Of a stretch of 35,915 nucleotides of DNA, positions 7,414 through 24,387 are shown one piece after another. Source of the stretch: Sulfurimonas sp. (GTDB lineage: Bacteria; Campylobacterota; Campylobacteria; Campylobacterales; Sulfurimonadaceae); NCBI GenBank assembly GCA_026988315.1, contig JALSLJ010000094.1, positions 1 through 35,915 on the forward strand. Reading direction: 5' to 3'. The notes below the pieces were generated by a model. It did no database searches. It was not told where the DNA came from and saw nothing but the letters and a program-made list of their open reading frames with translations. A program made the position numbers and the translations under genes. Position 1 is the first letter of the stretch. Each line of letters begins with the position of its first letter.

Positions 7414-8007
7414 ATGTTTGACATCCCTTGCATCATCTTTGCAGGTGGCAAAAGTTCTCGAATGGGAGAGGATAAATCTCTTCTCCCTTTTGGAGGGTTT
7501 AGCACACTCACAGAGTTTCAACTCTATCGCCTTAGCAAAATTTTCAAAACTGTTTATATCTCATGTAAAGACAAAAAAAAGTTTGATTTTCAAGCAAATT
7601 ATATAGAAGATATAAAAACTAATTCTGTTTATGCTCCTACTGCTGGATTTCTTGCTATTTATAAAGGGTTGCAAGCAGATTCTTTCTTTGCCCTGAGTGT
7701 TGATGCTCCATTTGTAGGTGAAGCAGAGATAGCAAAAATTCTAGAAGCTGACTCTACAAACATAGACGCAACTATTGCAAAAACAGCATTTGGGATGCAA
7801 CCAATGTGTGGCATCTATCACCGCTCACTAGAAAATGATTTTATGAAGATGTTCAAAGAGAATAACCACAAACTCGGTTTTTTACTTAAAAATTCTAAGA
7901 CTAACTTTATCTACTTTGATGAAGAAGAACCATTCTTAAACCTCAACCACTCTTATGAATACCAAGCAGCCTTACACTTAATTAAATTAAAAGAAAATAA
8001 TTGTTAG
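7414..8007 (+). CDS. mobA: Molybdenum cofactor guanylyltransferase MobA
   Basis: MobA adds GMP from GTP to molybdopterin, giving the guanine dinucleotide cofactor used by DMSO-reductase-family enzymes. The nucleotide-binding start [20 protein letters not shown] matches the family signature (GGxSxRMGxDK). SVDAPFV corresponds to the metal-binding DxP segment, and [10 protein letters not shown] to the conserved QP-hGhY motif. The length of 197 residues is normal. It begins two bases after the leuC stop, so it is probably co-transcribed with leuC. Its product would be needed by the molybdoenzyme encoded at 17998-20898. Confidence 0.93.
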
Positions 8008-8019
8008 AATATAAGGCAT

Positions 8020-8025
8020 TATAAT
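8020..8025 (+). promoter_or_regulatory. Candidate -10 box before the binding lipoprotein
   Basis: A TATAAT sits 22 bases before the ATG at 8048. There is no good -35 at standard spacing (TTGTTA at 8001-8006 is only 13 bases away). This suggests that the lipoprotein and GGDEF-EAL gene have their own promoter in addition to read-through from mobA. Confidence 0.45.
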
Positions 8026-8047
8026 ATTAATACAAAAGAGGCTAGTG

Positions 8048-8926
8048 ATGTTAAAGAAAGTTTTACTATTTCTAGTTGTGCTTATTTTATTTACTTCATG
8101 CACCTCTGATTATGACAAAAAACTAAAAGTCTCTGCCACCACTTGGATAGGTTATACCCCTTTATTTTACGCAAAAGAAAAGGGTTGGCTTGAGCATATA
8201 AATGTAAAACTTTTAAATGTTTCTTCATTGAGTGAAAACATGTACCTCTACAAAGCGGGTAATTCTGATGCATATGTTGGAACGCAGTATGAATACAATA
8301 TTTTAAGTAAAGCAGACCCATCACTAAAACCTATTATCCTTTTTGATAAATCAAACGGTGGCGATATTGTTATGAGCAACACCTCTATAAAATCTTTGCA
8401 AACAAGTGAAAAAATAGATGCTTATTTAGAGATGGACTCTATAAACTTTACAATGCTTAAGAGTTTTATGAAAAAGTACAACATCGACACTAAAAAAATC
8501 AACTACATCAACAAAGACCAAACTCAAATAGCTGAACTAAAATCAATTAAAAATCAAACACCAACTATAATAGTCACATATGTACCATATAACCATACAC
8601 TTAAAAAAAATGGCTTTACAAGCATTGAATCTACAAAAAACAACTTGGATTTGCTTATAGTTGATGCGATGTTTACCACTACAAAAAAATTTCATCAACA
8701 TAAAAAGCAGTTTATCGAACTAAAAAAATTTGTAAACGAAGGGGTGAAAGCTTTAGAAAAAAACCCAAAAGAGTTTTATGACACCATTAAGCCCTATATG
8801 CTAGATGTCAGCTATGATGAGTTTAAAAGCTCTTTAGATGATATAATTTGGATAAATGAAAATATACCAAAAGAGCTAAAACAGGCTATCAACAGTTCTG
8901 TTTTTCCAACAAGAGATTTACTCTAA
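8048..8926 (+). CDS. Substrate-binding lipoprotein, NMT1/TauA-like
   Basis: This 292-residue exported protein has a lipoprotein signal (MLKKVLLFLVVLILFTSC, acylated Cys at the end). After it comes a periplasmic binding protein fold of the NMT1/SsuA type: TTWIGYTPLFYAKEKGWL is the typical first strand-helix of binding proteins for aminosulfonates, nitrate, or pyrimidine precursors. The ATG at 8048 with AAGAGG upstream was preferred to the GTG at 8045. No ABC permease or ATPase gene is adjacent. The gene is followed after three bases by a membrane GGDEF-EAL protein, so the binding protein may feed a signal to c-di-GMP turnover rather than a transporter. The ligand is unknown. Confidence 0.82.
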   Translation: MLKKVLLFLVVLILFTSCTSDYDKKLKVSATTWIGYTPLFYAKEKGWLEHINVKLLNVSSLSENMYLYKAGNSDAYVGTQYEYNILSKADPSLKPIILFDKSNGGDIVMSNTSIKSLQTSEKIDAYLEMDSINFTMLKSFMKKYNIDTKKINYINKDQTQIAELKSIKNQTPTIIVTYVPYNHTLKKNGFTSIESTKNNLDLLIVDAMFTTTKKFHQHKKQFIELKKFVNEGVKALEKNPKEFYDTIKPYMLDVSYDEFKSSLDDIIWINENIPKELKQAINSSVFPTRDLL

Positions 8927-8929
8927 GCT

Positions 8930-10924
8930 ATGCAATTAAATATTCAAAAATTTACATTATTTATTATTTTCATCCTAATAAGTGTTTTATTTTCAATATT
9001 TATTTATTATTATTTAGATCAAAGAGAGAGAACCGCTTTAGTAATTTTAAAATCTATAAACACTCAGATGTCTGAAGCTAGTTATGTACTCTCTAAAAAT
9101 ATTACAAACAAAAAAAATGCAAAATCTTTTCGTCCGCTACTTGATAGAATGGCATCAAATAGTGAATTTGTTTTAGCTATTCTTATTCATGATGGCAATG
9201 ATGTACTAGTAACAACCGATCCTCGCCATAGAACTATAGAGCCTATAAATTCATTATATACTTCTAATAAAACTGCATATGTAAAACTTATGAGTGAAAA
9301 AGCGATGGAGACAAGCATAAGATACTATAAGGGGGATAAGGCAAAAAAATTACAACTACTTTTTATACTAGATAAATCAGAGATAGATTCTTACTTTTAT
9401 GAAAAACATTCAAAGTATCTAATATACTTTGGTTTTATCCCTATGCTCATTTTTCTTTTAGTTTGGTTAATAATACGCCACTTTGTAGTAAAACCATTAG
9501 AGAGGCTTCGTCAGTTTGCATATTATCAAAATGATGTTCCAAAAAGTTTTATTCTCAAAGAGCTTGAAGTTATAAGATACTCTATGGTTCAAACATTTCA
9601 AAGACTAGAGAATGAAAAAAAAGAACTCTATTCTATGGCAAGAACCGACTCTCTCAGTGGTCTAGCAAATAGAAATGCCCTCAACGAATACCTAGAAAGG
9701 CTTATCTTAAATAAATCTCGACAAAACAAAGAGTTTGCTTTTCTTTTTTTAGACTTAGATCATTTTAAAATTATCAATGATTCTTTAGGTCACAATGTTG
9801 GAGATGAACTTTTAAAAAAAGTTGCATCTATCATTGATGAAGTGCTAAGAGCAGATAGTTTTGTTGCTCGCATTGGTGGAGATGAGTTTGCCATAATTAT
9901 ACAAGAGTACAACTCCTTAATCGACTTAACAAATATTATATATAGAATTCAGAAAAATCTTTCTAAAACATGGGTTATACAAACACATCCAATCTCCATA
10001 AGCAGTAGTGTAGGTATAGCAATATTTCCAAAAGATGGAGAAGATATAGTCTCTCTTATGAAACACTCAGATATAGCTATGTATGAAGCAAAACAAGAGG
10101 GTCGAGCGAGATACCATTTCTTTACAAAAGAGCTAAACAAAAGGGTTCAAGATACAATATCACTTGAAAAAGATATGAAAAAAGCTCTAAAAGATGGGGA
10201 ATATGAGCTTTACTATCAACCAAAAGTAGATGTTATTAGTGGGAAAATCATTGGCGCTGAAGCATTGATTAGATGGATTTCCCCCTCAAAAGGAATCATC
10301 TCGCCAGATACTTTTATCCCTCTTGCTGAAGAGTGCGGCTTTATTTTAAAACTTGGTGTTTGGATTGTAGAGGAGGCTGTTAGGCAACAAAGAGTTTTTA
10401 AAGAAAAAGGGATAGATATCAAAATGTCTATAAATATATCAGCAAAACAACTCTTAATGGATGATTTCATCACTAATTTTGTCAAAATTTTAGAAAAGAA
10501 TAATGTTCATCCAAAAGATATTGATATAGAGATAACAGAATATATGTTATTGCAACAAAACAAGAAAAATTCACAAGTGCTAAAACAACTTCACGATTAT
10601 GGGGTTTCTATCTCTCTTGATGACTTTGGAACAGGCTACTCCTCTCTTTCGTACTTAAAAAAATTTCCAATAGATTACCTAAAGATAGACAAATCTTTCA
10701 TGGATGACTTTAATACCGATCAAGGCTCTATCTTTGTTGATACTATTGTAAAAATGGGGCAAACACTAAACATACAAATCATAGCGGAGGGTGTTGAACT
10801 TCAAGAGCAGATAAAATATTTGCAAGAAATAGCTTGCAATCAATACCAAGGCTATTGGTTTTCAAAACCATTGTGTGTATCAGATTTTCAAGAACTTTAT
10901 TTAAATCAAAACAATAAAAACTAA
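8930..10924 (+). CDS. Membrane GGDEF-EAL protein (c-di-GMP turnover)
   Basis: The 664-residue protein has membrane segments at about 9-29 and 163-183 enclosing a periplasmic sensor domain, then GGDEF and EAL domains in the cytoplasm. The cyclase site ARIGGDEF is intact (GGDEF 316-320). The I-site position reads RADS rather than RxxD, so product inhibition may be lost. The EAL domain keeps all expected residues: EALIRW, NISAKQL, IEITE, DDFGTGYSS, LKID, AEGVE and the YQGYWFSKP end. It may therefore make or break c-di-GMP. It starts three bases after the binding lipoprotein gene, which strongly suggests that the two work together as a ligand sensor. Confidence 0.92.
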   Translation: MQLNIQKFTLFIIFILISVLFSIFIYYYLDQRERTALVILKSINTQMSEASYVLSKNITNKKNAKSFRPLLDRMASNSEFVLAILIHDGNDVLVTTDPRHRTIEPINSLYTSNKTAYVKLMSEKAMETSIRYYKGDKAKKLQLLFILDKSEIDSYFYEKHSKYLIYFGFIPMLIFLLVWLIIRHFVVKPLERLRQFAYYQNDVPKSFILKELEVIRYSMVQTFQRLENEKKELYSMARTDSLSGLANRNALNEYLERLILNKSRQNKEFAFLFLDLDHFKIINDSLGHNVGDELLKKVASIIDEVLRADSFVARIGGDEFAIIIQEYNSLIDLTNIIYRIQKNLSKTWVIQTHPISISSSVGIAIFPKDGEDIVSLMKHSDIAMYEAKQEGRARYHFFTKELNKRVQDTISLEKDMKKALKDGEYELYYQPKVDVISGKIIGAEALIRWISPSKGIISPDTFIPLAEECGFILKLGVWIVEEAVRQQRVFKEKGIDIKMSINISAKQLLMDDFITNFVKILEKNNVHPKDIDIEITEYMLLQQNKKNSQVLKQLHDYGVSISLDDFGTGYSSLSYLKKFPIDYLKIDKSFMDDFNTDQGSIFVDTIVKMGQTLNIQIIAEGVELQEQIKYLQEIACNQYQGYWFSKPLCVSDFQELYLNQNNKN

Positions 10925-10936
10925 ATTTACTTTAGG

Positions 10937-10942
10937 TATAAT
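10937..10942 (+). promoter_or_regulatory. Candidate -10 box for moaC
   Basis: A TATAAT in the 45-base gap between the GGDEF-EAL gene and moaC lies 27 bases before the moaC ATG. It could give moaC its own transcript. The -35 region is not recognisable. Confidence 0.45.
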
Positions 10943-10969
10943 TATAAAAATTAAAATAAAGAATTATAG

Positions 10970-11440
10970 ATGAATTTAACTCATTTAGATGAAAATCAAA
11001 GACCAAAAATGGTTGATGTTTCAGATAAAAACCAAACAACAAGAGTAGCAATAGCTAGCGGTATTATAGAGATGAGCCAAGATGCTTTTGATGCTATCGT
11101 AAGTGAAAAAACTAAAAAAGGTCCAGTGCTTCAAACAGCAGTAATAGCAGCGATAATGGGTGTCAAAAAAACAAGTGAACTTATCCCAATGTGTCATCCA
11201 CTCAATCTAAGTGGGATTAACTGTGATGTGGAAGAACTCTCAAGTTTGCCTGGATTTAAACTAAGTGTTACTGCAAAATTAAGAGGACAAACAGGTGTTG
11301 AGATGGAAGCACTCACAGGTGTTAGTATTGGACTACTTACAATTTATGACATGGTAAAAGCGATAGACAAAAGTATGATAATTAAAAATGTTCAATTAGA
11401 AAAAAAATCAGGAGGTAAAAGTGGAGATTATAAACGATAG
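10970..11440 (+). CDS. moaC: Cyclic pyranopterin monophosphate synthase MoaC
   Basis: MoaC converts the MoaA product from GTP into cyclic pyranopterin monophosphate, the first stable intermediate of molybdenum cofactor synthesis. The 156-residue protein has the typical opening [16 protein letters not shown], the active-site region PMCHPLNL, the [12 protein letters not shown] segment, and the C-terminal [10 protein letters not shown] with catalytic Lys. The length is normal. The GGAGG inside its last codons (11411-11415) serves as ribosome binding site of the next gene, which overlaps by 20 bases. It lies about 2 kb from the end of the molybdoenzyme operon and 3 kb from mobA. Confidence 0.95.
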
Positions 11441-13374: not shown

Positions 13375-14463
13375 TTACATATCTTTTTGAAGGGTAAATA
13401 TATGTGCAAAATCTTCTCTAAAATCGGCACATCTATCACAAATAGGATCCCCACCGCGATATGGGTATGGACATCTACACTCACTACACATCACCATCTC
13501 ATAATGGACTAACTCAACCCCTCTATCAAAAGCAACATCTACCAAATCAATTCCCTTAGCAGTTTTTATTGCATCTGTTTTACATATATGATCACATATC
13601 CCACAGGCTATACAATTGCCCACATTAAAATTTATCCCTTGTTTATCAGAGGTGTGTAAAAGAGCTTCTGTTGGACAAAAATTTATACAGTCACCACAAT
13701 TTGTGCAATCTTTAAAACTTATCTCTTTTTTAGCAAATATATCAAAATTTGTTGCATGGGATGTAAATGATACTTTTGATATATTTTCTTTTAAAGCTTG
13801 TTTTAGATGTAAAAATTTTAAAGGAAGCCCATTTTTGTTTGGATCTTTTTGATACTCTAGTGTCATTGATAATGATTTCTCATCCTCTTCAATAGCATCT
13901 TTTACTTTTGAAAAAGCTGCTTTAAATAAAGCTCTTTTTGGGTTTTCTTCCTCTGTTGTCTCTTCAATAATGACAACACCATCTTTTAAGCCACAATCAC
14001 TTAGAAATATATTTGTCTTGTTTATTTCATCTCGGATAAAACTTGCAACTTTTTTATCTTTGTTTAATGAGCACTCTTGACAATGTGACATGTCGCAGGC
14101 AGGCATCTGCTCTGAACTAAGTGCCATTGTGATGTAGTGGTGTGCATCAAAAGCACCTAAACAAGCTGTCGTTTTTTTACAAGATAAAAGCTTCTCTTGA
14201 GTATCCTTAAAGCTTACTGTATATGCATTTGGATCAAAAGAGGTTATGCTTAAAGCTTCTGTTGGACAACTCCCTATACATGCACTACACTCAATACATT
14301 CATTTGAAAAAAGTGTTAATTTATCTCTTACTATATGAAAAGCATCCTCTGGACAAATCTCAACACAAAGTTGACACTCATGATGATAATAATCATTTCT
14401 TATACAATTAGTTCCAGAGTATGAAAAAAGTTCACTTTTTTGTATAAATGAAAAATCACTCAC
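13375..14463 (-). CDS. Cytoplasmic polyferredoxin with C-terminal CxxC pairs
   Basis: This 362-residue protein has no signal peptide. The N-terminal part carries two ferredoxin-type sites: ECQLCVEICP (Cys30, 33, 37, with Cys20 as possible fourth ligand) and ECIECSACIGSCP (Cys56, 59, 62, 66). After a variable middle with extra cysteines (CDMSHCQEC) come two more, DCTNCGDCINFCP and NCIACGICDHICK. The C-terminus has MCSECRCPYP...ICDRC, like a small zinc or rubredoxin-like knuckle. The start is GTG at 14463, with GAGGAG seven bases upstream, one base beyond the TorD-like stop, so the two are translationally linked. It may donate electrons to, or help mature, the molybdoenzyme. The exact role is unknown. 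Confidence 0.85.
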   Translation of the reverse strand: MSDFSFIQKSELFSYSGTNCIRNDYYHHECQLCVEICPEDAFHIVRDKLTLFSNECIECSACIGSCPTEALSITSFDPNAYTVSFKDTQEKLLSCKKTTACLGAFDAHHYITMALSSEQMPACDMSHCQECSLNKDKKVASFIRDEINKTNIFLSDCGLKDGVVIIEETTEEENPKRALFKAAFSKVKDAIEEDEKSLSMTLEYQKDPNKNGLPLKFLHLKQALKENISKVSFTSHATNFDIFAKKEISFKDCTNCGDCINFCPTEALLHTSDKQGINFNVGNCIACGICDHICKTDAIKTAKGIDLVDVAFDRGVELVHYEMVMCSECRCPYPYRGGDPICDRCADFREDFAHIFTLQKDM

Positions 14464-14464
14464 C

Positions 14465-15031
14465 TTAACGCTCCTCTAAAGCACAACAGTAATCAAAATC
14501 TGCCACAATAAACTCAACAATAAAATCACATATATCTCTGTAAAATGGTGTCAATGCCATACTCTTCATCCCAAGCATATACGGAACAACCCAGTTAAAA
14601 ATATGCTCTTTTAAAAAGTCGTATTGTGGTTTTTGCTCATCTCTAAAGATAAGTGTTTGCATAAAAGCAAATTCTATAGAGAGATGATCTGGTGCCATCA
14701 GTTCTGTTTGATCCATATTTAGCTCAAACCCGTGCCTGTAATAAAAATTCATTACTGGGTTTTGCAACCCAACAAGAGTTTCATTTTTAGCATCGAGAAC
14801 AAATGATTCCACTGCTTGTGTATTGATTACAAACATGGAAGAAAAATCCTCATTTAATGCATCAAAAATTGCATTATCATCATTTTCACTAAACCACTTT
14901 GTTGTTTCTTCGCCAAGCAATTCTAAAAGCTCACTATTGGCTCTTAGATCACTTATATATCTTCTATCAATTGTATCCGCCATTGTTCTTGAAAGAAATG
15001 CGTAGATATAGAGTCTATACTCTTTGTTCAT
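14465..15031 (-). CDS. TorD-family molybdoenzyme chaperone
   Basis: TorD-like proteins bind the Tat signal peptide of a molybdoenzyme and hold it until cofactor insertion is complete. The 188-residue all-helical cytoplasmic protein has the family signature MAPDHLSIEFAFMQTL (usual form E-PDHL-xEL-FM) and the expected length. It sits in the same operon as the Tat-exported catalytic subunit at 17998-20898, its probable client. The ATG at 15031 is preceded by a weak AGG. A 100-base gap with a hairpin separates it from the lipoprotein gene, and the polyferredoxin gene follows at once. Confidence 0.9.
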   Translation of the reverse strand: MNKEYRLYIYAFLSRTMADTIDRRYISDLRANSELLELLGEETTKWFSENDDNAIFDALNEDFSSMFVINTQAVESFVLDAKNETLVGLQNPVMNFYYRHGFELNMDQTELMAPDHLSIEFAFMQTLIFRDEQKPQYDFLKEHIFNWVVPYMLGMKSMALTPFYRDICDFIVEFIVADFDYCCALEER

Positions 15032-15108: not shown

Positions 15109-15132
15109 TCTTAAAGCCAAAAGGCTTTAAGA
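15109..15132 (-). terminator. Hairpin directly after the lipoprotein stop
   Basis: TCTTAAAGCC and GGCTTTAAGA form a perfect 10-bp stem with a four-base loop, starting right after the lipoprotein stop codon. On the transcribed strand it is followed by GGTGTTTTTA, a modest T run. It may be a leaky terminator or an RNA-stabilising element that lowers expression of the chaperone and ferredoxin relative to the enzyme subunits. Confidence 0.65.
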
Positions 15133-15660
15133 TTATAAACAGCCTTTAAAGAAAGACTTTTTAGGTGGTGGTGGAGCTTGAAACTCACTTGCGTATATCG
15201 TATTTGTTGCTTTATCGTACTCGCCGATAATTGTAACATCATTACGATTTATACCCATATCAATATCTTGAGCAGGAACAGCAGATGTTTCTATGTTGTA
15301 AGTATGCCCCTCTTTATGCAGATAGAGTACAATTTGTACATCACCAAACACGCCTGGTTCAAACTCTTTATAACATCCATCACTACCACAAATATAGTTT
15401 TCCAAATAGCAATCCGTAAAAGCACCAGACGCAGCACAGGTATCTATTGTTAAAAAGCCTTGCTTTTCAATAGGCACCAATTTTCCAGAAGCTTTTGCAA
15501 CAACTTTCGCTTCTGCATCCAGTTCAACTTTTGTTTTAGGTTTTTCAACACTAGGCTGTGCTGAACCACATCCACTAAAACCAAGCATTAGCCCAAGAGC
15601 TAATACTAAAGAGAGCAAAGTAATATTTCTCACCCTAAAGGCATTTATTTCACTGCGCAT
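15133..15660 (-). CDS. Cysteine-containing lipoprotein of the molybdoenzyme operon
   Basis: This 175-residue exported protein has a lipoprotein signal: a basic start, a hydrophobic run, and the lipobox GFSGC near residue 31. The mature part has six cysteines (DTCAAS, TDCYLEN, YICGSDGCYKEF and a C-terminal KGC), perhaps forming disulfides or binding metal, and a proline-rich APPPPKK tail. The ATG at 15660 was chosen because GGAGG lies six bases before it; a TTG two codons upstream is less likely. It overlaps the end of the gamma-subunit gene by 11 bases. I do not recognise the family. Position suggests a membrane-anchored periplasmic partner of the enzyme. Confidence 0.82.
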   Translation of the reverse strand: MRSEINAFRVRNITLLSLVLALGLMLGFSGCGSAQPSVEKPKTKVELDAEAKVVAKASGKLVPIEKQGFLTIDTCAASGAFTDCYLENYICGSDGCYKEFEPGVFGDVQIVLYLHKEGHTYNIETSAVPAQDIDMGINRNDVTIIGEYDKATNTIYASEFQAPPPPKKSFFKGCL

Positions 15661-16858
15661 TTTCAACCTCCACTTTTAAAGTTTTCAGGTATGCAACTAT
15701 ATCATCAATCTCTTGAGCTGACATCCAATCAAAACCAGGCATAGATGATACTCTTTTACCATTATCTATATTGTACCAAGCATAATTGCTATGTGCATTT
15801 CTATTGTAACCTGGAACAACAACTGCGGATGGGTTCATAAGTGATTCTTTAAGATAATCAATTGTTGAATAACCACCAATATTTGTCAGGGATGGACCCA
15901 TTAAGTTGGCAGCATCTCTTGATGTAAGCTGATGACATGCTGAACAATTTGCAGTTGCAATATCCTTCCCTCTCTTTGCATCACCTTTAACATCCGAATA
16001 TAGAGCAGATAAAAGCGCATCTGAACCTGGTTTTCCCTCAAGCTCAACCGCTGTCCAAGCTGAAAGATATTTTAACCCATTACGACCTAATTTATCTCCA
16101 TCCCAAACGGCAAAAGCAACAGGGATTACAGCACTATTTAGGTTTAGGTATTCATCTTTTAAAGGGCGACTGAGTGTACCTTTCCAGCCATCACCAGTGT
16201 ATGCTATACGCGCAAAAGACTTAGAACTACCATCTTTAATCTCGCTCATTGAACGGAAACCCTCAGATACAAAAGTTCTTTCATAATCACGAGTACCTAA
16301 TGTTTTCACCAGATCATTATATTTTTCAAGATCCTTACCAAATAGGTCTGTCTGATTTGGATTTACTTGGTAAGCAACATTACCGTTCCCGTTTGGCTCA
16401 TATGTTTTGCTTGTCTCTTTTTGAAGATGCACAACAACCTCGCGACCCTCAGAACCCATACCAATATAAGGAAGTTTTTTAGGGTTAGAATAGTTTGATG
16501 CAAACTGAATAGCAAAGCCATCCGAGTAAGTATCAGTTTTATCGTTCTGCTGAATACTTTGCGTACCATCAGGCCACTTAATCATAAAGGCTATTTTAGA
16601 GTTATTATATACCGCTGCAATCTCTGCAACAATAGCTTTATTTTTAGCATTTATCTCATTTGCTTTTTTATCATTAAACTTTATTGTTGTTTGAGGATAC
16701 AAAGTAACCTTTGAAAAATCAGCACTCTTCCAGATATCATCCTTGCAATTAATAGTATCAATGTTTGAGCTTACCTTAGTAGCCTCTATTGAAGAGTCTC
16801 CCAAAAGCGCCGAAACAATAACACTCGCTGCTAAAAGCGAATTTACCAACTTCTTCAT
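15650..16858 (-). CDS. Heme-b gamma subunit fused to cytochrome c
   Basis: The 402-residue periplasmic protein (signal peptide about residues 1-20) joins two electron-transfer modules. Residues about 35-275 resemble the heme-b gamma subunit of type II DMSO-reductase-family enzymes (ethylbenzene, dimethylsulfide, selenate and chlorate enzymes). The signature VAFAVWDGDKLGRNGLKYLSAW contains the likely heme ligand Lys263, and Met134 in GMGSEGRE is a candidate for the other. Residues about 290-398 are a class I cytochrome c with CSACH (Cys305, Cys308, His309) and a likely axial Met373 in SSMPGF. GGAGG precedes the ATG, which overlaps the beta-subunit stop by one base (TAATG). Known gamma subunits usually lack the cytochrome part. 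Confidence 0.9.
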   Translation of the reverse strand: MKKLVNSLLAASVIVSALLGDSSIEATKVSSNIDTINCKDDIWKSADFSKVTLYPQTTIKFNDKKANEINAKNKAIVAEIAAVYNNSKIAFMIKWPDGTQSIQQNDKTDTYSDGFAIQFASNYSNPKKLPYIGMGSEGREVVVHLQKETSKTYEPNGNGNVAYQVNPNQTDLFGKDLEKYNDLVKTLGTRDYERTFVSEGFRSMSEIKDGSSKSFARIAYTGDGWKGTLSRPLKDEYLNLNSAVIPVAFAVWDGDKLGRNGLKYLSAWTAVELEGKPGSDALLSALYSDVKGDAKRGKDIATANCSACHQLTSRDAANLMGPSLTNIGGYSTIDYLKESLMNPSAVVVPGYNRNAHSNYAWYNIDNGKRVSSMPGFDWMSAQEIDDIVAYLKTLKVEVENAQ

Positions 16859-17988
16859 TAGTGATGCCCTCCTATATTTCCATGGCCGCCATCATGATAA
16901 AAATTTATTTCATTATTTGGCTTAGTAAATTTACCAGCTATATAACGGTTATCAACTGGTGCAAGAGGATTGCGACCCTTATCTTTTGCCACTTGTTGAT
17001 AGTAAGTGTTATCAAGACGGAACATATCTGAGTGTTGGTATGCAATTAAGATATCCATAAGCTCACTCTCACCTGTTTCTTTACGCTTTTTCATCTCTGC
17101 TTTTAGAGTTTTTATAGCGCCATGAACTTCAGGACCAAAAAGTTTTTCAAGCTCTTCAATTGGAAGACGAGTTGAACCCTCTATGATTTTGCCATTTGCA
17201 TCAAATTTAGCTGGCGATTCAGTTGGTGGTACATAGAAAATATTTGGTTGCGTACCATAATCAGAACGGAGGGGTAATGCAACTTTATATTTCTCAACAA
17301 GTTTATAAACTTGCCCCTCTGTATCATCTTTAAATCCAACAAAACGGATACGCCCAACACACTGTTGTGCACATGCTGGTGGAAGACCCTGTTCAACTCT
17401 TGGAAAACATAAAATACATTTTTCAGATTTTGAAATCTTAGGATTAAAATAGATTTTTTTGTAAGGACATCCAGCGATACAATAACGATACCCTTGACAT
17501 CTATCTAAATCCACTAAAACAACACCATCCTCTTCACGCTTAAATATAGCATCTCTAGGACAAGCACTTAAACATCCAGGATTTGTACAGTGGTTACAAA
17601 TACGAGGTAGATAAAAGAAGTAGTTATCCTCAGGAAAAGAACCAGCTCCCTCATCTTCATCCCAGTTTGGACCCCAAGTAGGCTCTACATTTGGCTCAAA
17701 TGATGCTCCACCTTGTAAGGAATCATAGTTATAATCCCAAGGCACACCGTAATCTGCTTCAAGATTTGGGATGATACCTGGTTGTAAATCACCAGCCTCA
17801 TCAAAACCGCCACCTAAATCCATCCAGTTTTTTGGATATCCGGTACCAGGATATGTCTCAACATTATTCCAATACATATACTCACGACCATTACGATTAG
17901 TCCATTGAGTTTTACACGCTACAGTACATGTCTGACACCCGATACATTTATTCAGGTCCATAACCATTGCTAATTGTCTCTTTGACAT
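16858..17988 (-). CDS. Four-cluster iron-sulfur beta subunit (type II DMSO reductase family)
   Basis: The 376-residue NarH-like subunit passes electrons between the catalytic subunit and the heme subunit. It has no signal peptide and is probably exported with the alpha subunit by Tat. Four cysteine groups are seen: Cys15/18/21/25, Cys131/134/139/143, Cys164/170/174 and Cys191/194/206/210. In the third group Tyr167 stands where a 4Fe-4S cluster would need Cys (Trp in NarH), which predicts a 3Fe-4S cluster. The DYNYDSL...PNWDED segment and the ACAQQCVGRIRFVG motif are typical of this family and not of short DmsB-like subunits. It lies nine bases after the alpha stop and overlaps gamma by one base. 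Confidence 0.95.
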   Translation of the reverse strand: MSKRQLAMVMDLNKCIGCQTCTVACKTQWTNRNGREYMYWNNVETYPGTGYPKNWMDLGGGFDEAGDLQPGIIPNLEADYGVPWDYNYDSLQGGASFEPNVEPTWGPNWDEDEGAGSFPEDNYFFYLPRICNHCTNPGCLSACPRDAIFKREEDGVVLVDLDRCQGYRYCIAGCPYKKIYFNPKISKSEKCILCFPRVEQGLPPACAQQCVGRIRFVGFKDDTEGQVYKLVEKYKVALPLRSDYGTQPNIFYVPPTESPAKFDANGKIIEGSTRLPIEELEKLFGPEVHGAIKTLKAEMKKRKETGESELMDILIAYQHSDMFRLDNTYYQQVAKDKGRNPLAPVDNRYIAGKFTKPNNEINFYHDGGHGNIGGHH

Positions 17989-17997
17989 CTATACCCC

Positions 17998-20898
17998 TTA
18001 AACTTTTGCTTTTTCATAATTTACGGCGCCATCATATGCGTACTGATTACCGTCCCAAAGACCACCGAATTTTAGGTGACCCCAACCATCTGCCATCTCT
18101 AGTAGGTTCAGAGATGTAGGTACAACTTCGTTGTGACCTTTGTTAAACTTATACATGTATGGTTCCCATCCATGCTCCATCACAAGTCCATCTGCTGGTG
18201 AAGATGAACTTAATTTTGCCATTGCGAAGAACTCTCCAAGGTTATTAAATACACGGATAGTATCTCCATCTTCAATACCTTTTGCTTTTGCAACTACACG
18301 ATTGAGAGCAATCGCTGGTACACCACGCTGTAATCTAAGGAGTGTACGAGAAGTCTTATAGTTTGAGTGAATCGACCATCTAGCGTGTGGAGTCATAAGC
18401 ACATATGGATACTCTTTTCGTTGTGGACGAATCCCTTCCATACCTGTATTTGTAGCCGCTCCCATTTTGATATACATCTCATGGTCAACATAAAATGTTT
18501 GACGACCAGACATTGTGTGCATAGGCTCAAATTTATAAAGGTGGTTTTCATTTGAGTTATACGGCTTATCAGAATAGAGTGGAGATGTTTGAGCAGCTTT
18601 TTCATTAATCATCAAGAACCCACCCATTTTATACATCTTCTCTATAGTCCATGGCTGATACTGGTCACATTTTTCTAATGCAGCTTCAACAGCCATCTTA
18701 TCAGTTCCAAGATAAACCTCACCAGCACCCTCAGACTCTTCATCAGTATTTGTATATTCTTTATGGAAGATTGTTAAGTCATGGTACCCTGGTTTTGCAT
18801 AACGGATATCATCTTTAACCTTTGCTTTTGAGATATTTTCAGGACGCGTAGCTATCTCTTCTAGCTTTTTAGCTAAAAGTGTAAACATACTCCACTCATC
18901 CATAGCTTCACCAACATTTTTGATGTTAGCAACTGGTTGAGCCAAGTTTGTAAAGCGATGGTAACCTGGAGATGTACGAAGATCATAAACCTCATAGTGA
19001 GATTTTGCAGGAAGCAAAACATCTGCATACTGAGCTGCTTCACTCATCCTATAATCAACATAAGCAAAAAAGTCCATTCTTCCTAAGAATGCTTTACGAT
19101 ACTCATTACCCTTATTTCTTCTAAAAGTTGAATCTGCAACGATTAAAGCTGTAGTTGGTAGCCACCAAGGTTTCACAACATTACCAGTTGTGCTTGTGAG
19201 ATTATCTCCACCATTTTTACCTGCTTCAAGCATCTCGCTTAAAACTGCCATATACTCTTTTTTACTCATACCATTTTGAGCTCGTTTTACATCTTCATCG
19301 TCAAAATACTCATCAAAAGTTTTCATACCGTTACCATTCATGAACTCACCAACGAAACCTGAACCAAAACGGGGATTATACTTACCAGAAAAACCAGACA
19401 AGGCACCAAGACCTGAAAGTTGAAACTCATTCTCAGTATTTAAACCGCCATATGGACCCATACGACCTGTTAAACCACAGATTGAAGCCACATTCCAAAT
19501 AGTCATCATACCGTTAAAGTATTTGTTAAGAGAAAAACCAGTAGTAATTTCTACAACTTTTGGAAGTGCTATATCTTTTGCTAATTGTTTTACAGTATCT
19601 GGATGTACGCCAGTAGTATCTTTAGTTACCTCTGGAGCAAACTTGGAAGCTGATTTTTTCAACATCTCAAATACAGTTGTCACTTCTCTTTCATGACCAT
19701 GAACATCAGTTATAGTCCAAACTCCCTCTAAGGTTGGTACAACATCTTTAGGAAGACGAAGTGTACGAGTTTTATGGCCTTCAGTACCTGGCATTAAGAA
19801 AGGCTCACCTGAAGTTTCATTCATACAGTAAAATTGCTCATCCCATGCATGGTGGTCTTCTTTGTTTTCAGTATGTTCTAAATCATTTCTGCGAATCATC
19901 TTTTGAGTTTTCACATCTACTAAGAAAGGCAAATCTGTGTAAAGCTTAGCAAACTCTGGCTTGTACATTTTCTCATTTAAAATTTCATAAATAACACTCA
20001 TCGCTAAGATATTATCAGAGCCCGCTTTAATAGGTATCCAAAGATCTGCAGATTTTGCAGTTGCATTGAACTCGGGAGTAATTACAATGATTTTCGCACC
20101 ATTGTATTTACCTTCCCAAACAAAGTGAGCATCAGGGATACGAGAAACTGATGGATTACCACCCCACATAACAGCAGTATCTACTGTGTACATAAAGTCC
20201 CAAGTACATCCAAGATTACCCTCACCATAAGCAATTGCAGCACCAGAGAACATATCTCCAAGATAAGATGATGGATAGATTCTATTTGCTCCTAACTGAG
20301 TTGAGAAACGCAAAACTGAACCACGGCGACCCTCAGTTAAAAGGCCTGTTCCAGCATGAACCATTAACTTATCTGGACCACGCTCTGGATCTGTGAGAGT
20401 ATCAAAAATATTTTGACAAATCTTCTCAGCAGCCTCATCCCAAGAAGCTCTTTTCCATTTACCCTCACCACGCTCACCTGTACGAATCATCGGATAAAGA
20501 ATTCTATCTTTTTGATACATCACTTGTGAGTGCTGAACACCCTTGTTACATCCACGAGGATTAAAGTCAGGGATTTTAGCATTGATAACTGGGTAGCGAG
20601 CAGATTGATTTTCACGAGTGATTACACCGTTGTGAGACCAAACTTCCCAAGCACAGTTACCTTGACAGTTTACACAATGGTATGCAAAACCGTGTTCCTC
20701 TTTTTTACCATAAGTAAAAGAGAACTCATTTCTATACATCTCTTCAGTATAGTTTGTGTTTGGATACTCATTTTTTCCATTCTCAACACTCATCGCCTCA
20801 GTTTTCGCAAAAAGAGAACCTTGTGAAGCAACTAATGCAGCAGTCATTCCCGAAACTTTAAGGAAATTTCTACGCTTATTATTCATAACTTTTGTCAT
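17998..20898 (-). CDS. Type II DMSO-reductase-family molybdenum catalytic subunit, Tat-exported
   Basis: This 966-residue catalytic subunit binds the bis-molybdopterin guanine dinucleotide cofactor in the periplasm. The N-terminus has a Tat signal (KRRNFLK at 8-14, then a hydrophobic stretch ending near AKT). His74, Cys78, Cys82 and Cys117 form the His-type 4Fe-4S site typical of type II enzymes. Asp215 in YLGDMFSGAA is in the position of the Asp that ligates molybdenum in NarG and ethylbenzene dehydrogenase. The C-terminal domain has the RWSIHSNYKTS and VFNNLGEF segments of type II relatives. Family members act on nitrate, selenate, (per)chlorate, dimethylsulfide or hydrocarbons. The substrate here is not determinable by eye. 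It follows the rhodanese gene by 16 bases. Confidence 0.95.
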   Translation of the reverse strand: MTKVMNNKRRNFLKVSGMTAALVASQGSLFAKTEAMSVENGKNEYPNTNYTEEMYRNEFSFTYGKKEEHGFAYHCVNCQGNCAWEVWSHNGVITRENQSARYPVINAKIPDFNPRGCNKGVQHSQVMYQKDRILYPMIRTGERGEGKWKRASWDEAAEKICQNIFDTLTDPERGPDKLMVHAGTGLLTEGRRGSVLRFSTQLGANRIYPSSYLGDMFSGAAIAYGEGNLGCTWDFMYTVDTAVMWGGNPSVSRIPDAHFVWEGKYNGAKIIVITPEFNATAKSADLWIPIKAGSDNILAMSVIYEILNEKMYKPEFAKLYTDLPFLVDVKTQKMIRRNDLEHTENKEDHHAWDEQFYCMNETSGEPFLMPGTEGHKTRTLRLPKDVVPTLEGVWTITDVHGHEREVTTVFEMLKKSASKFAPEVTKDTTGVHPDTVKQLAKDIALPKVVEITTGFSLNKYFNGMMTIWNVASICGLTGRMGPYGGLNTENEFQLSGLGALSGFSGKYNPRFGSGFVGEFMNGNGMKTFDEYFDDEDVKRAQNGMSKKEYMAVLSEMLEAGKNGGDNLTSTTGNVVKPWWLPTTALIVADSTFRRNKGNEYRKAFLGRMDFFAYVDYRMSEAAQYADVLLPAKSHYEVYDLRTSPGYHRFTNLAQPVANIKNVGEAMDEWSMFTLLAKKLEEIATRPENISKAKVKDDIRYAKPGYHDLTIFHKEYTNTDEESEGAGEVYLGTDKMAVEAALEKCDQYQPWTIEKMYKMGGFLMINEKAAQTSPLYSDKPYNSNENHLYKFEPMHTMSGRQTFYVDHEMYIKMGAATNTGMEGIRPQRKEYPYVLMTPHARWSIHSNYKTSRTLLRLQRGVPAIALNRVVAKAKGIEDGDTIRVFNNLGEFFAMAKLSSSSPADGLVMEHGWEPYMYKFNKGHNEVVPTSLNLLEMADGWGHLKFGGLWDGNQYAYDGAVNYEKAKV

Positions 20899-20914: not shown

Positions 20915-22057
20915 CTATCTTTTAAGTGGTAAACTCATATCGTTACCCCAAACATCCCAACTACCTGTAAATACTTTAATATTTTTGTATCCAAGAAGCT
21001 TAAGAGCTGTAATGTGTTCTGAGCCACGACCTGCACCAACCATACAATATGCATAAATTGTTTTATCTTTATCTATCCCGTTTTTAGCATATATAGCTTT
21101 TAAGTCTGTAGCCGATTTGAATGATCTTTTATTTTTAACATCAGAAATTTCACTCCACTCAATAAAACTAGACCCTGGTATATGTCCACCACGAGCAACA
21201 TTATCCATTTTACGCTCACCGATAATCTCAGCCATAGAACGAGAATCAATAATTACATACTTAGAATCTTTTCCATTTTTAAGAATATCTTCCATTGCAT
21301 GCTTCACCTCTTCCTTGCCCGCAATATTTGTTAAATTAACATCCTCTTTGTCAATTCTATATGTTTTTGGAGCTACATTCTCTTCCCCTTTAACAACTAA
21401 AAGATCAGGTTCTAATGCTTTCATTTGAGCTTTATACTCTTTTTGCTCTTTTTTACTTGCCTTAATGAGAGCTTTATATTCAGCAATTTGTACTTCGCTT
21501 AATTCTATCTTCCCTTTTTTATGATTTTTTAAAGCTTTTTTTGCTTTTTTTGCTGGCTTTTTAGCTTTTTTAGCTTCTGCTTTAATGGCATTATATTTTT
21601 GCTGAACTGGATCAATCTCCATAATAGCCGCACGACCGCCATTTAAAATTTTGATATTTGTATGTCCAAAACTTGTGAAAAAAGAGTAAACACCAGTAGC
21701 ATTTGGCCCTTTAAAATCATCATAAGCTATAATCATAGTATCGTTAGAGATGCCTTTTGATCCTATGTAGTGCTCAGCATCATCCAAACAACGATACAAT
21801 GGCTCGCAATGCATATTTCCTGTAATGTCTGAATGGTGTAAATGGTGAGCATACATCTCAACAGAACCTTTTATGTGCCCCAATTTATACACATCTTCAG
21901 TATCACCTGAGACAAACATTACATTTTCTTTACCAATAAGCTTAACTGCATCCTCTGCAGATATTAAAATATCATTATCATGATATTCATCTGCTACTAC
22001 TAACGGGGTCATAGCCAATGTCGCAGCTAGTAGCAACCCCTTTATCATTTTTTTCAT
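20915..22057 (-). CDS. Exported two-domain rhodanese (sulfurtransferase) with Lys-rich linker
   Basis: The 380-residue protein begins at the ATG at 22057, with AGGAGG seven bases upstream; a reading from 22084 adds nine unlikely residues. A signal peptide (MKKMIKGLLLAATLAMTPLVVA) predicts a periplasmic location. Domain 1 (about 30-155) has the rhodanese fold, but its active loop reads YDDFKGPNATG with Asp instead of Cys. Domain 2 (about 240-380) has the active loop AYCMVGAGRGS with the catalytic Cys. This inactive/active pair is typical of thiosulfate or mercaptopyruvate sulfurtransferases. A highly charged linker (about 160-215), full of Lys-Lys-Ala repeats, separates the domains and is unusual. 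It is the first gene of the molybdoenzyme operon and may deliver or accept sulfane sulfur (or selenium). Confidence 0.9.
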   Translation of the reverse strand: MKKMIKGLLLAATLAMTPLVVADEYHDNDILISAEDAVKLIGKENVMFVSGDTEDVYKLGHIKGSVEMYAHHLHHSDITGNMHCEPLYRCLDDAEHYIGSKGISNDTMIIAYDDFKGPNATGVYSFFTSFGHTNIKILNGGRAAIMEIDPVQQKYNAIKAEAKKAKKPAKKAKKALKNHKKGKIELSEVQIAEYKALIKASKKEQKEYKAQMKALEPDLLVVKGEENVAPKTYRIDKEDVNLTNIAGKEEVKHAMEDILKNGKDSKYVIIDSRSMAEIIGERKMDNVARGGHIPGSSFIEWSEISDVKNKRSFKSATDLKAIYAKNGIDKDKTIYAYCMVGAGRGSEHITALKLLGYKNIKVFTGSWDVWGNDMSLPLKR

Positions 22058-22096: not shown

Positions 22097-22102
22097 ATTA
22101 TA
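22097..22102 (-). promoter_or_regulatory. -10 box for the rhodanese-molybdoenzyme operon
   Basis: On the minus strand TATAAT (22102-22097) lies 40 bases before the rhodanese ATG, giving a leader of about 33 bases with AGGAGG. The -35 position (17-base spacer) reads TTTCCC, a poor match, which would fit a promoter that needs an activator. Confidence 0.55.
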
Positions 22103-22183
22103 CATAAATCTTATTGATTGGGAAATCTTTCAGCAAATTTAAACTCTTTCATTGTAGGCTCTTATATCTTACTTATAAGTTAA

Positions 22184-22380: not shown

Positions 22381-22986
22381 ATGTCCAAAAACGCTATAGA
22401 AAATGCAATTGATACCAAAGATACTGATACTTTAATAGAGATACTAGAAGATAAAACTCTTCCCATAGAAGATATAAAAAAAATCTATTATCCCTTAAGA
22501 AACCATAAAGAGCTAGTTGCACAAGTTGCTATGAACTTGAGCCTAAGAACCTCTGTATATGATAGGGAAAAAGAGTATAGTGAAACTATGGTTGAACTTC
22601 TGCGTGATCTGGCTGTTAATGAAGCTGATATGGGTGCGAGATGGGCAGTTGCAAAAAATCCGCATACGCCAGAGGATGTTTTAAGTGATTTAGCAAAAGA
22701 TAAAATAAACTTAGTAAGAGCACTCGTTGCAACAAATCCAACAACTCCCTCTAATATTTTAGAAAAATTCTTTAGTGATGAAAAAATTGTAAGAGATGGC
22801 TTATCAGGCAATCCAAACACGCCTGTAAAAATTTTAAAAATTTTAGCAAGCGATAGCGATAAAATGGTAAGAATGAGATTAGCTGAAAATGCTAAAGCTC
22901 CAAAAGAGATACTCAAAGAACTGCTCAAAGACTCTGATGTAAATGTAGCAAAGGCTGCTGAAGTAAATATGGATAAATTATCATGA
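22381..22986 (+). CDS. Leucine-rich-variant (LRV) / HEAT-like repeat protein
   Basis: The 201-residue cytoplasmic protein is built of helical repeats of about 24 residues. At least four carry the sequence N-P-x-T-P-x-x-(V/I)-L followed by Asp/Lys-rich helices (KNPHTPEDVL, TNPTTPSNIL, GNPNTPVKIL, ENAKAPKEIL), the signature of leucine-rich-variant repeats. Unlike the Azotobacter LRV protein it has no cysteine, so no iron-sulfur cluster is expected in it. The ATG has a weak AGG upstream. Its stop overlaps the next ATG (ATGA), and an Mrp-type ATPase follows, so the three form an operon. The function is probably protein binding; the partner is unknown. Confidence 0.82.
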   Translation: MSKNAIENAIDTKDTDTLIEILEDKTLPIEDIKKIYYPLRNHKELVAQVAMNLSLRTSVYDREKEYSETMVELLRDLAVNEADMGARWAVAKNPHTPEDVLSDLAKDKINLVRALVATNPTTPSNILEKFFSDEKIVRDGLSGNPNTPVKILKILASDSDKMVRMRLAENAKAPKEILKELLKDSDVNVAKAAEVNMDKLS

Positions 22987-23354
22987 GAAAACATAGCAAA
23001 AGTATAAAAAGTAAGTTTACTGCACTTGAAAATCATTTTTTAAATACTTTTTTCTCAGGTATCTATATCAGTGCAAATGAGTTTATAACTATTGGTAGAA
23101 AAACAGGGCTTCAACTTGGGATGAACTCAAGAGAACTCCTCATAAAAGAGTTGCTAAACAAGAGTGATGCCAATGGCACTTTAAATCAAACAGCAGAACT
23201 GCTAAATACTCTCATTCAAGAAAGAATAGACAGATATAATGCTCTCAGTAGAGACTATCCCAATTCAGGATTACAACTCTCTGGGCTAGTACAAAAAGCA
23301 AATGCTACTAAATCTTTACTTACGCGTGAATCTCAAAGAAGTCCCTATGAATAG
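22983..23354 (+). CDS. Conserved-looking protein of unknown function
   Basis: This 123-residue protein begins with a basic stretch and is mostly helical, without cysteine, signal peptide or membrane segment. It overlaps the upstream repeat-protein gene by four bases (ATGA) and the mrp gene by eight bases, so all three are translationally linked. I do not recognise the family. The tight overlaps on both sides are good evidence that it is a real gene. A role linked to its operon neighbours is inferred from position only. Confidence 0.75.
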   Translation: MRKHSKSIKSKFTALENHFLNTFFSGIYISANEFITIGRKTGLQLGMNSRELLIKELLNKSDANGTLNQTAELLNTLIQERIDRYNALSRDYPNSGLQLSGLVQKANATKSLLTRESQRSPYE

Positions 23355-24387
23355 AAGTGAGCTACAAAAATCCTTAGCTCTGCTAAAGTATCCAGATATT
23401 GATAGAACCATAAAGGAATTAAAGCTTCTTGGAGAAGTTACAGTAAATAATCATGTAGCAAATATTGAATTGTTGACAGTAAGTGATGAATCATACCTGA
23501 GCGTTAAAAAACTTATTGAGCAAAACTACTCTACAAAATTTAAAGCTCTCAATATTACTAAAAAAACTCTTGGGAAAAAAGACACCAACTATGGAGATAG
23601 TGCCAATCCAAACAACCGTGCACCCTATGCCAAAAATATCATAGCAGTTACAAGTGGAAAAGGGGGCGTTGGAAAAAGTACCGTAAGTGTAAATATTGCC
23701 ATAGCACTCGCTCAAAAAGGTTTCAAAGTTGGGATACTAGATGCAGATGTCTATGGACCAAATATCCCTCGATTAACCAATATAGATACAGAACGAATAA
23801 AATGGGGTGACAATAATAAAATAATCCCTGCCGAAAATTATGGTCTAAAAATTATGAGTGTTGCACTTACAACTCCTAAAGCAGACACTCCTCTTGTATG
23901 GAGAAGTTCAGTTGCCGTCAATGCGCTTATACAGTTTTTAGAAGATGTTGATTGGGGTGAACTAGACTTTATGGTTATAGATATGCCTCCTGGAACTGGT
24001 GATGTGCAATTAACAATGGCACAAGAACTTCCAATATCTGCAGCAGTTCTTGTAACAACTCCACAAGTAGTAGCAACCGATGATGTAAGTCGTGCTATTA
24101 TGATGTTTAAAGATATAAATGTTCCAATGGCTGGTGTGATTGAAAACATGAGCTTTTTTATCGCTCCAGATACCAAAAATCGCTACGATATTTTTGGCAC
24201 AGATGGAGGCAAAAGAATAGCTAAAAAATATGATATACCATATTTGGGTGAGATACCTTTGGATATGCAAATTCGTGAGGCTTCCGATAAAGGTGAACCG
24301 CCCGTAGCCTTAGGTGAGCAAAATACTAAAAAATATTATAAAGATATAGTTAATAATATTTTGGATACCTCTGAATTTAAGCTATAA
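23347..24387 (+). CDS. Mrp/ApbC-type P-loop ATPase, iron-sulfur carrier family
   Basis: Mrp/ApbC proteins bind and deliver iron-sulfur clusters. The 346-residue protein starts at ATG 23347; a longer reading from 23302 uses an unlikely start inside the upstream gene. After a DUF59-like N-terminal domain (about 1-80) comes the deviant Walker A motif SGKGGVGKST, then DADVYGPN, Walker B-like DFMVIDMPPGTGD, and the family's QELP and VIENMS segments. Where many members have the cluster-binding CxxC after VIENMS, this one reads SFFIAPDTKNRYDIFG with no cysteine. Cluster transfer by the standard site is therefore doubtful, and a different binding mode or role is possible. Confidence 0.9.
   Translation: MNRSELQKSLALLKYPDIDRTIKELKLLGEVTVNNHVANIELLTVSDESYLSVKKLIEQNYSTKFKALNITKKTLGKKDTNYGDSANPNNRAPYAKNIIAVTSGKGGVGKSTVSVNIAIALAQKGFKVGILDADVYGPNIPRLTNIDTERIKWGDNNKIIPAENYGLKIMSVALTTPKADTPLVWRSSVAVNALIQFLEDVDWGELDFMVIDMPPGTGDVQLTMAQELPISAAVLVTTPQVVATDDVSRAIMMFKDINVPMAGVIENMSFFIAPDTKNRYDIFGTDGGKRIAKKYDIPYLGEIPLDMQIREASDKGEPPVALGEQNTKKYYKDIVNNILDTSEFKL

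Follow-up and report, generated by a model that had tools for sequence, protein, structure and literature searches.

The window, by which we mean the entire 35,915-nucleotide stretch of Sulfurimonas sp. contig JALSLJ010000094.1 that was analyzed, carries a compact operon of seven genes (Table 1). Specifically, the gene for a secreted rhodanese (RHOD) is followed by those for three molybdoenzyme subunits (ALPHA, BETA, and GAMMA), a small secreted protein (LIPO), a TorD-like chaperone (TORD), and a ferredoxin-like protein (FERR). Neighboring genes lie 1–101 bp apart or overlap. Promoter-like sites in the region, the match upstream of the rhodanese gene included, are no more common than in shuffled sequence, and terminator-like sites number 6 against 4.2 expected. 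The hairpin between the small-protein and TorD genes could make the first five products more abundant than the last two.

Table 1. Features of the operon in the window (positions 1 to 35,915) and of one related locus
Feature	Position	Strand	Basis or detail
Sigma-70-like promoter match upstream of rhodanese, TTCCCA-16-TATAAT	22097..22124	(-)	Consensus, 10/12
Tandem-domain secreted rhodanese, first operon gene	20915..22057	(-)	380 aa; Pfam, Foldseek, VIA
Rhodanese domain 1, inactive, D113 at the Cys position	21611..21973	(-)	Residues 29-149
Conserved domain-1 loop, H71-H-L-H-H75 ... C84-x5-C90	21788..21847	(-)	Orthologue alignment
Lys/Ala-rich linker, lineage-variable	21404..21610	(-)	Residues 150-218; predicted helical hairpin 150-180 / 188-218
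Rhodanese domain 2, catalytic C338 (codon 21044-21046)	20921..21295	(-)	Residues 255-379; loop C-x-V-G-[AT]-G-R-[GS]-[ST]
Alpha, type II DMSO-reductase-like molybdopterin subunit	17998..20898	(-)	966 aa; twin-arginine RRNFLK; Mo-ligand Asp in SSYLGDMFSG
Beta, four-cluster-type Fe-S subunit	16858..17988	(-)	TIGR03478 above cut-off
Gamma, ethylbenzene-dehydrogenase-type (EB_dh) heme b domain fused to class I cytochrome c	15650..16858	(-)	Pfam
Small secreted (here lipo-) protein, OB-like body with C66, C75, C82, C87	15133..15633	(-)	GTG start, 166 aa
Disordered arm PPPPKKSFFKGCL-COOH, penultimate C165; candidate Sec (UGA) in relative L118	15136..15174	(-)	Alignment, model
Terminator- or attenuator-like hairpin right after small-protein gene, before TorD	15109..15132	(-)	Consensus match only
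TorD-like chaperone	14465..15031	(-)	Pfam/NCBIfam, relatives' loci
Multi-[4Fe-4S] ferredoxin-like protein, last of the conserved set	13375..14463	(-)	Pfam/NCBIfam, relatives' loci
UGA in frame at the codon of the invariant tail Cys	L118:8532-8596 (G157)		Candidate selenoprotein

The rhodanese reading frame is intact, running on the minus strand from an ATG at 22057 to a stop codon at 20915–20917, and its N-terminal sequence is hydrophobic, as is typical of a Sec signal. Pfam detects PF00581 twice (82.4 bits). The AlphaFold model (mean pLDDT 88.2) resembles tandem sulfurtransferases throughout. Its best Foldseek match is 1uar (E 2e-16), onto which VIA superimposes 264 residues at Z 28.2 and an rmsd of 3.3 Å, and it also matches 1urh and 1rhd. 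The original prediction, which read an Asp in place of the catalytic Cys of domain 1 and AYCMVGAGRGS in domain 2, was right on both counts: AYD113DFKG in the first domain corresponds to AYC338MVGAGRGS in the second. D113 and C338 are conserved among the aligned orthologues, in which the active loop always takes the form given in Table 1. We rejected the idea that the inactive first domain is a novelty. An Asp is ordinary there in tandem rhodaneses, and the bovine enzyme has one at the same position ("VVVYDGDD" aligned with "IIAYDDFK" of the window). Assignment of the protein as an SseA or ExtH orthologue was likewise rejected, given scores far under both cut-offs (71.6 vs 250 bits for the NCBIfam SseA equivalog; 32.7 vs 200 bits for the ExtH model NF040901). 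The signature loops CRKGVTA and CGSGVTA are absent from the window protein, which has CMVGAGRGS instead.

Three elements of domain 1 are conserved, in the order HHLHH, C-x5-C, and D-x3-GPNATGV. All full orthologues examined keep C84 and C90; both cysteines also remain in L118, the most divergent relative, where HHLHH is lost. At one related locus (L018, genome G096), the rhodanese frame contains several stops and a frame change, and a full small protein still lies downstream. Genome G108 carries two rhodanese copies on separate contigs.

The two rhodanese domains are joined by the segment on which the original prediction placed its emphasis, a linker of about 55 residues dominated by Lys, Ala, and Glu and thought to be unusually basic. 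The richness in Lys and Ala stands; the length does not. Sixty-seven residues lie between P150 and L219, among them 21 K/R, 7 D/E, and 12 A, for a net charge of +14. The window protein is thus indeed basic in this region, but the family is not: across 79 orthologues the linker measures 34–88 residues with a net charge ranging from −4 to +18 and a median of +2. In orthologues from other families (L020, L022, and L116–L121) the insert is absent, and the gene is still first in the same operon. Structure prediction yields not a floppy basic tether but two long helices (150–180 and 188–218) folded as a hairpin at pLDDT of about 97–98. Judged from these alignments, the basic linker is a feature of a lineage and not of the family. 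The model suggests a helical spacer that is probably incidental, rather than a polysulfide trap. Because charge and length drift, and because linkerless orthologues occupy the same operon, any role in binding polysulfide would not be a family property. The features observed in the rhodanese are real and no artifact of composition; the emphasis on the linker was wrong. Two features escaped that first reading, namely, the Cys tail of the small protein, which does not vary, and the exclusion between the operon and SoxC; we return to both below.

The second to fourth genes specify a molybdoenzyme whose scores and sequence identities suggest a distinct, so far unassigned branch of the type II DMSO reductase family. 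The beta subunit passes the curated model TIGR03478 (513.7 vs a cut-off of 480.7 bits). Alpha falls under the cut-off of TIGR03479 (720.3 vs 984.75 bits), as does gamma under that of TIGR03477 (83.2 vs 169.85 bits). Thus, the substrate cannot be read from homology. Among solved structures, alpha is closest to the perchlorate reductase PcrA (338 bits) and the ethylbenzene dehydrogenase EbdA (275 bits). It shares about 35% identity with ClrA, and its best annotated match on a plasmid is a chlorate reductase at 33% identity. The Asp that ligates molybdenum is conserved, the GD of SSYLGDMFSG aligning with YGDHPTG of PcrA, IGDTYMG of EbdA, and CDLPPAS of NarG. Where PcrA and NarG have the motif YDWYxD, alpha has SSYLGD. 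At one related locus (L095:9259-13804), alpha is in pieces and its region exceeds the usual length by about 1.5 kb, perhaps owing to an inserted element.

No Pfam or NCBIfam model matches the small protein, those for SoxY and DsrC included. An OB-like fold is predicted for its body, where structure comparison gives weak matches (best Foldseek E 0.14; VIA Z 6.8), and only some members possess a lipobox. The striking part is the C-terminus, a PPPP-x-KSFFKGCL ending in which Cys is the penultimate residue. Behind the poly-proline spacer, all 56 aligned rows read S160-F-F-K-G-C-L166 without exception, and the mean frequency of the majority residue is 0.998 over the last eight positions compared with 0.61 in the body. 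The arm is predicted to be disordered. In relatives whose rhodanese lacks the linker, the small protein lacks the C82/C87 pair and keeps the tail.

One relative offers a hint as to the chemistry of this tail. The small-protein gene of L118 (genome G157) ends ...PPPPVASDFKG-TGA-CTC-TGA; a UGA in frame takes the exact place of the tail Cys codon and is followed by Leu and a stop. The genome encodes SelA (537 bits), SelB (296 bits), and tRNA-Sec (62 bits). Fifty bases starting at the UGA have a predicted folding energy of −20.5 kcal/mol (z −3.1) and form a hairpin directly 3′, with its GGU apical loop 18–20 bases past the UGA. Among the features of bacterial SECIS elements is a small, G-containing apical loop (PMC1088965). 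An Rfam search of L118 returned no SECIS. The first four operon genes of L118 are open, and G157 possesses a second small-protein copy, a paralogue ending DTLFKGCL. The locus thus combines what is looked for in a selenoprotein: a UGA aligned to the Cys of homologues, a hairpin downstream of it, and a genome equipped with the Sec machinery. Searches across the order, the family, and the phylum turned up no second case, leaving one sequence in a draft genome. Occurrence of the UGA in more than one sequence is the criterion that guards against sequencing error, and a single case counts as a candidate only (PMC1088965). On this sequence evidence, we regard the L118 protein as a candidate new selenoprotein. 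If the replacement of Cys by Sec is real, the tail position is that of a redox-active thiol.

The arrangement of the operon is strongly conserved. A search of a genome collection recovered 113 relatives, and our locus figures come from 80 of these 113. Members of that set belong to Sulfurimonas, Sulfuricurvum, Sulfurovum, Sulfurospirillum, Hydrogenimonas, Nitratiruptor, and Thiovulum. The seven-gene order RHOD-ALPHA-BETA-GAMMA-LIPO-TORD-FERR holds as far as the contigs reach; at a few loci, TorD or the ferredoxin has no match above the score limit. Of the 80 loci, 79 lie on contigs that continue past the rhodanese gene, and alpha follows directly in all 79; the contig of the eightieth ends inside the gene. 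This essentially absolute linkage bears out the earlier view that the rhodanese opens an operon encoding a molybdoenzyme and a (lipo)protein as well. Among 299 genomes of the order, 87 possess the rhodanese, 84 the small protein, and 83 both; 83 of the 88 operon-positive genomes have the pair, and the five exceptions are draft assemblies of many contigs. On plasmids, the search met neither the small protein nor a rhodanese match covering 80% of the query. Our search of the open-access literature yielded no description of the operon.

The surroundings of the operon also recur. Upstream and divergent from it (window 22381–24387) lie the gene of an Mrp/ApbC-type ATPase and two short genes, repeat-type or hypothetical. 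The same three genes flank the operon in about 60 related loci, which places it at a conserved chromosomal site. On the other side (window 7414–11440), MobA-like and MoaC-like cofactor genes lie near the operon; a GGDEF/EAL protein and an NrtA-like binding protein are encoded between the two. About 31 related loci also have MoaC downstream of the operon.

A possible link between the operon and sulfur oxidation emerges from its distribution among genomes. SoxC, counted as matches above the cut-off plus one fragment at 410 bits, is present in 91 of the 299 genomes of the order. It occurs in 4 of 88 operon genomes versus 87 of 211 others (Fisher p 7e-12, a value that ignores phylogeny). SoxB is uncorrelated with the operon in the same genomes (p 0.79). 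The 96 SoxB-positive genomes divide into 66 with SoxC only, 23 with the operon only, 4 with both, and 3 with neither (p 5e-15, again ignoring phylogeny). The contrast persists at close range: in the genus of the window, SoxC is found in none of 4 operon genomes and in all 14 others. Across the whole family of the window, SoxC is missing from 8 operon genomes, and every operon-free genome listed has it. Genera g34, g44, g23, g60, and g52 also hold both kinds of genome without overlap. The operon and SoxC nearly exclude each other, and these within-genus contrasts soften, without removing, the non-independence that phylogeny imposes. Sixty-one operon genomes possess neither SoxB nor SoxC, so many carriers are not obvious thiosulfate oxidizers. 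The genome of the window has no match to SoxB, SoxC, or SoxY.

Published descriptions of individual strains are in line with this pattern. Sulfuricurvum kujiense, RIFRC-1, and PC08-66 are reported to have SoxAXBYZ and to lack SoxCD (PMC4288042). We find the operon in a S. kujiense genome (L052) and in PC08-66 (L088), in agreement with that absence. Strains that carry soxCDYZ alone are reported to oxidize S0 but not thiosulfate (PMC12403661), a phenotype that parallels the operon-only genomes. The carriers also include members of Sulfurospirillum, a genus of hydrogen- and formate-oxidizing sulfur reducers (PMC11406935).

How might these components work together? At the level of sequence, the features to be accommodated are the gene linkage, a single predicted catalytic Cys in the rhodanese, the invariant arm, a putative heterotrimer with a cytochrome c outlet, and the exclusion of SoxC. 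The reading we favor, at a little under even chances, is that the operon specifies a periplasmic module for the oxidation of sulfane sulfur that stands in for SoxCD and in which the rhodanese loads the Cys arm; both the direction and the substrate are inferred. The notion is that C338 would accept sulfane sulfur, from polysulfide, thiosulfate, or a product of sulfide oxidation, as a persulfide. The sulfur would be passed to the tail Cys (or Sec) of the small protein. The tail could then swing into the molybdenum pocket of alpha, where the bound sulfur would be oxidized. Electrons would run from the Fe-S clusters to heme b, to heme c, and on to periplasmic cytochromes. In genomes with SoxAXBYZ and without SoxCD, the module would perform the SoxCD step; in genomes without SoxB or SoxC, it would work alone. 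We put forward more tentatively the wider proposal that this is an undescribed Campylobacterota sulfur-oxidation module, in which a rhodanese loads an OB-like Cys/Sec-arm protein and a type II enzyme oxidizes the arm-bound sulfur, and that it has replaced SoxCD repeatedly in evolution.

Several observations weigh against the favored reading. Enzymes of the type II DMSO reductase family can run either way, four genomes possess both the operon and SoxC, 61 possess neither SoxB nor SoxC, Sulfurospirillum is among the carriers, and the Sec case is single. The main rival is that the same module runs in reverse. Specifically, polysulfide, elemental sulfur, or another acceptor would be reduced, with the rhodanese and the Cys arm delivering it, as in the Sud/polysulfide reductase system of Wolinella. 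There, a rhodanese is known to feed a molybdoenzyme in sulfur reduction. Such a role would suit the many carriers without SoxB and SoxC and the Sulfurospirillum relatives that reduce sulfur (PMC11406935). Near-exclusion with SoxC, however, would not be expected on this view, and it is seen even within a single genus. Moreover, to our knowledge, sulfur reductases are of the PsrA/PhsA type and not type II, whereas alpha is far closer to PcrA and EbdA. We judge reduction unlikely, if still a serious competitor.

Next comes a respiratory oxyanion reductase acting on selenate, a chlorate-like compound, or another substrate, in which the rhodanese and the Cys/Sec arm would handle selenium or protect the enzyme. 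The similarities of alpha to PcrA and to a plasmid-borne chlorate reductase point this way, and rhodaneses do occur in selenite-reduction clusters such as that of ExtH. Alpha nevertheless lacks the YDWYxD motif, the rhodanese scores far too low against the ExtH model, and the titles of the 80 of 113 loci name no known selenate respirer of the genus Sulfurospirillum. The exclusion of SoxC would go unexplained, and we consider this possibility improbable.

A role for the rhodanese in maturation or repair, through sulfuration of the cofactor or of an Fe-S cluster and with no part in turnover, appears less probable again. Constant linkage and a TorD chaperone in the same operon would fit. Against this idea, the rhodanese has a secretion signal, whereas the molybdenum cofactor enters its enzyme in the cytoplasm, ahead of the Tat export for which alpha carries RRNFLK, and the invariant Cys arm of the neighboring protein would have no explanation. 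Finally, that the basic linker binds polysulfide or another polyanion as a key functional element is very improbable despite the net charge of +14 here and up to +18 in relatives, because the charge is not conserved, the segment is predicted to be a rigid hairpin, and linkerless orthologues keep both the operon and the partner tail.

The favored reading, sulfane-sulfur oxidation in place of SoxCD, would change how these organisms are viewed. Sulfuricurvum and other Campylobacterota have been described as possessing SoxAXBYZ without SoxCD and, on account of that absence, are assumed to carry oxidation no further than elemental sulfur (PMC4288042, PMC12403661). Should the operon perform the missing step, predictions of sulfur deposition for such Campylobacterota would be wrong. 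Nature would also have arrived at a second, unrelated solution for oxidizing carrier-bound sulfur, and the reactions known for type II DMSO reductase enzymes would be extended. The operon would also offer a clear, deletable gene set in cultivated strains, for example, Sulfuricurvum kujiense and Sulfurospirillum arcachonense.

We note that each component has counterparts among known systems. With tandem sulfurtransferases (bovine rhodanese, SseA, Thermus 1uar, and mycobacterial CysA2/SseA), the window rhodanese shares the two domains, the domain-1 Asp, the domain-2 catalytic Cys, and the whole fold. It differs in its active loop, CxVG[AT]GR[GS][ST] as opposed to CRKGVTA/CGSGVTA, and it adds the HHLHH...CxxxxxC loop, the helical hairpin insert, secretion, and a fixed operon. 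ExtH, a rhodanese of Geobacter selenite/tellurite reduction, likewise places a rhodanese domain in a redox gene cluster, but with different partners and with the low model score given above. The type II DMSO reductases PcrAB, ClrABC, and EbdABC have in common with the operon the Mo-ligand Asp, the TIGR03478 beta subunit, the EB_dh heme b gamma subunit, and a TorD-like chaperone; the gamma–cytochrome c fusion, the rhodanese, and the Cys-arm protein are the operon's own. The arm itself recalls those of DsrC and SoxY in form and position, a likeness that we take as analogy and not homology. DsrC/TusE possess a penultimate Cys on a flexible C-terminal arm that follows prolines, as does the small protein, but they are cytoplasmic, and the small protein has no match to the DsrC family. 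The Sox pathway (SoxYZ plus SoxCD) offers a functional analogy: both systems would be periplasmic, would present sulfur on a carrier with a C-terminal Cys arm, and would pass electrons from a molybdenum enzyme to cytochrome c, and their genome distributions are complementary. No homology between the two was detected. The arm reads FFKGCL here and GGCGG in SoxY, the operon adds a rhodanese, and its molybdenum enzyme belongs to the DMSO reductase family, whereas SoxCD belongs to the sulfite oxidase family.
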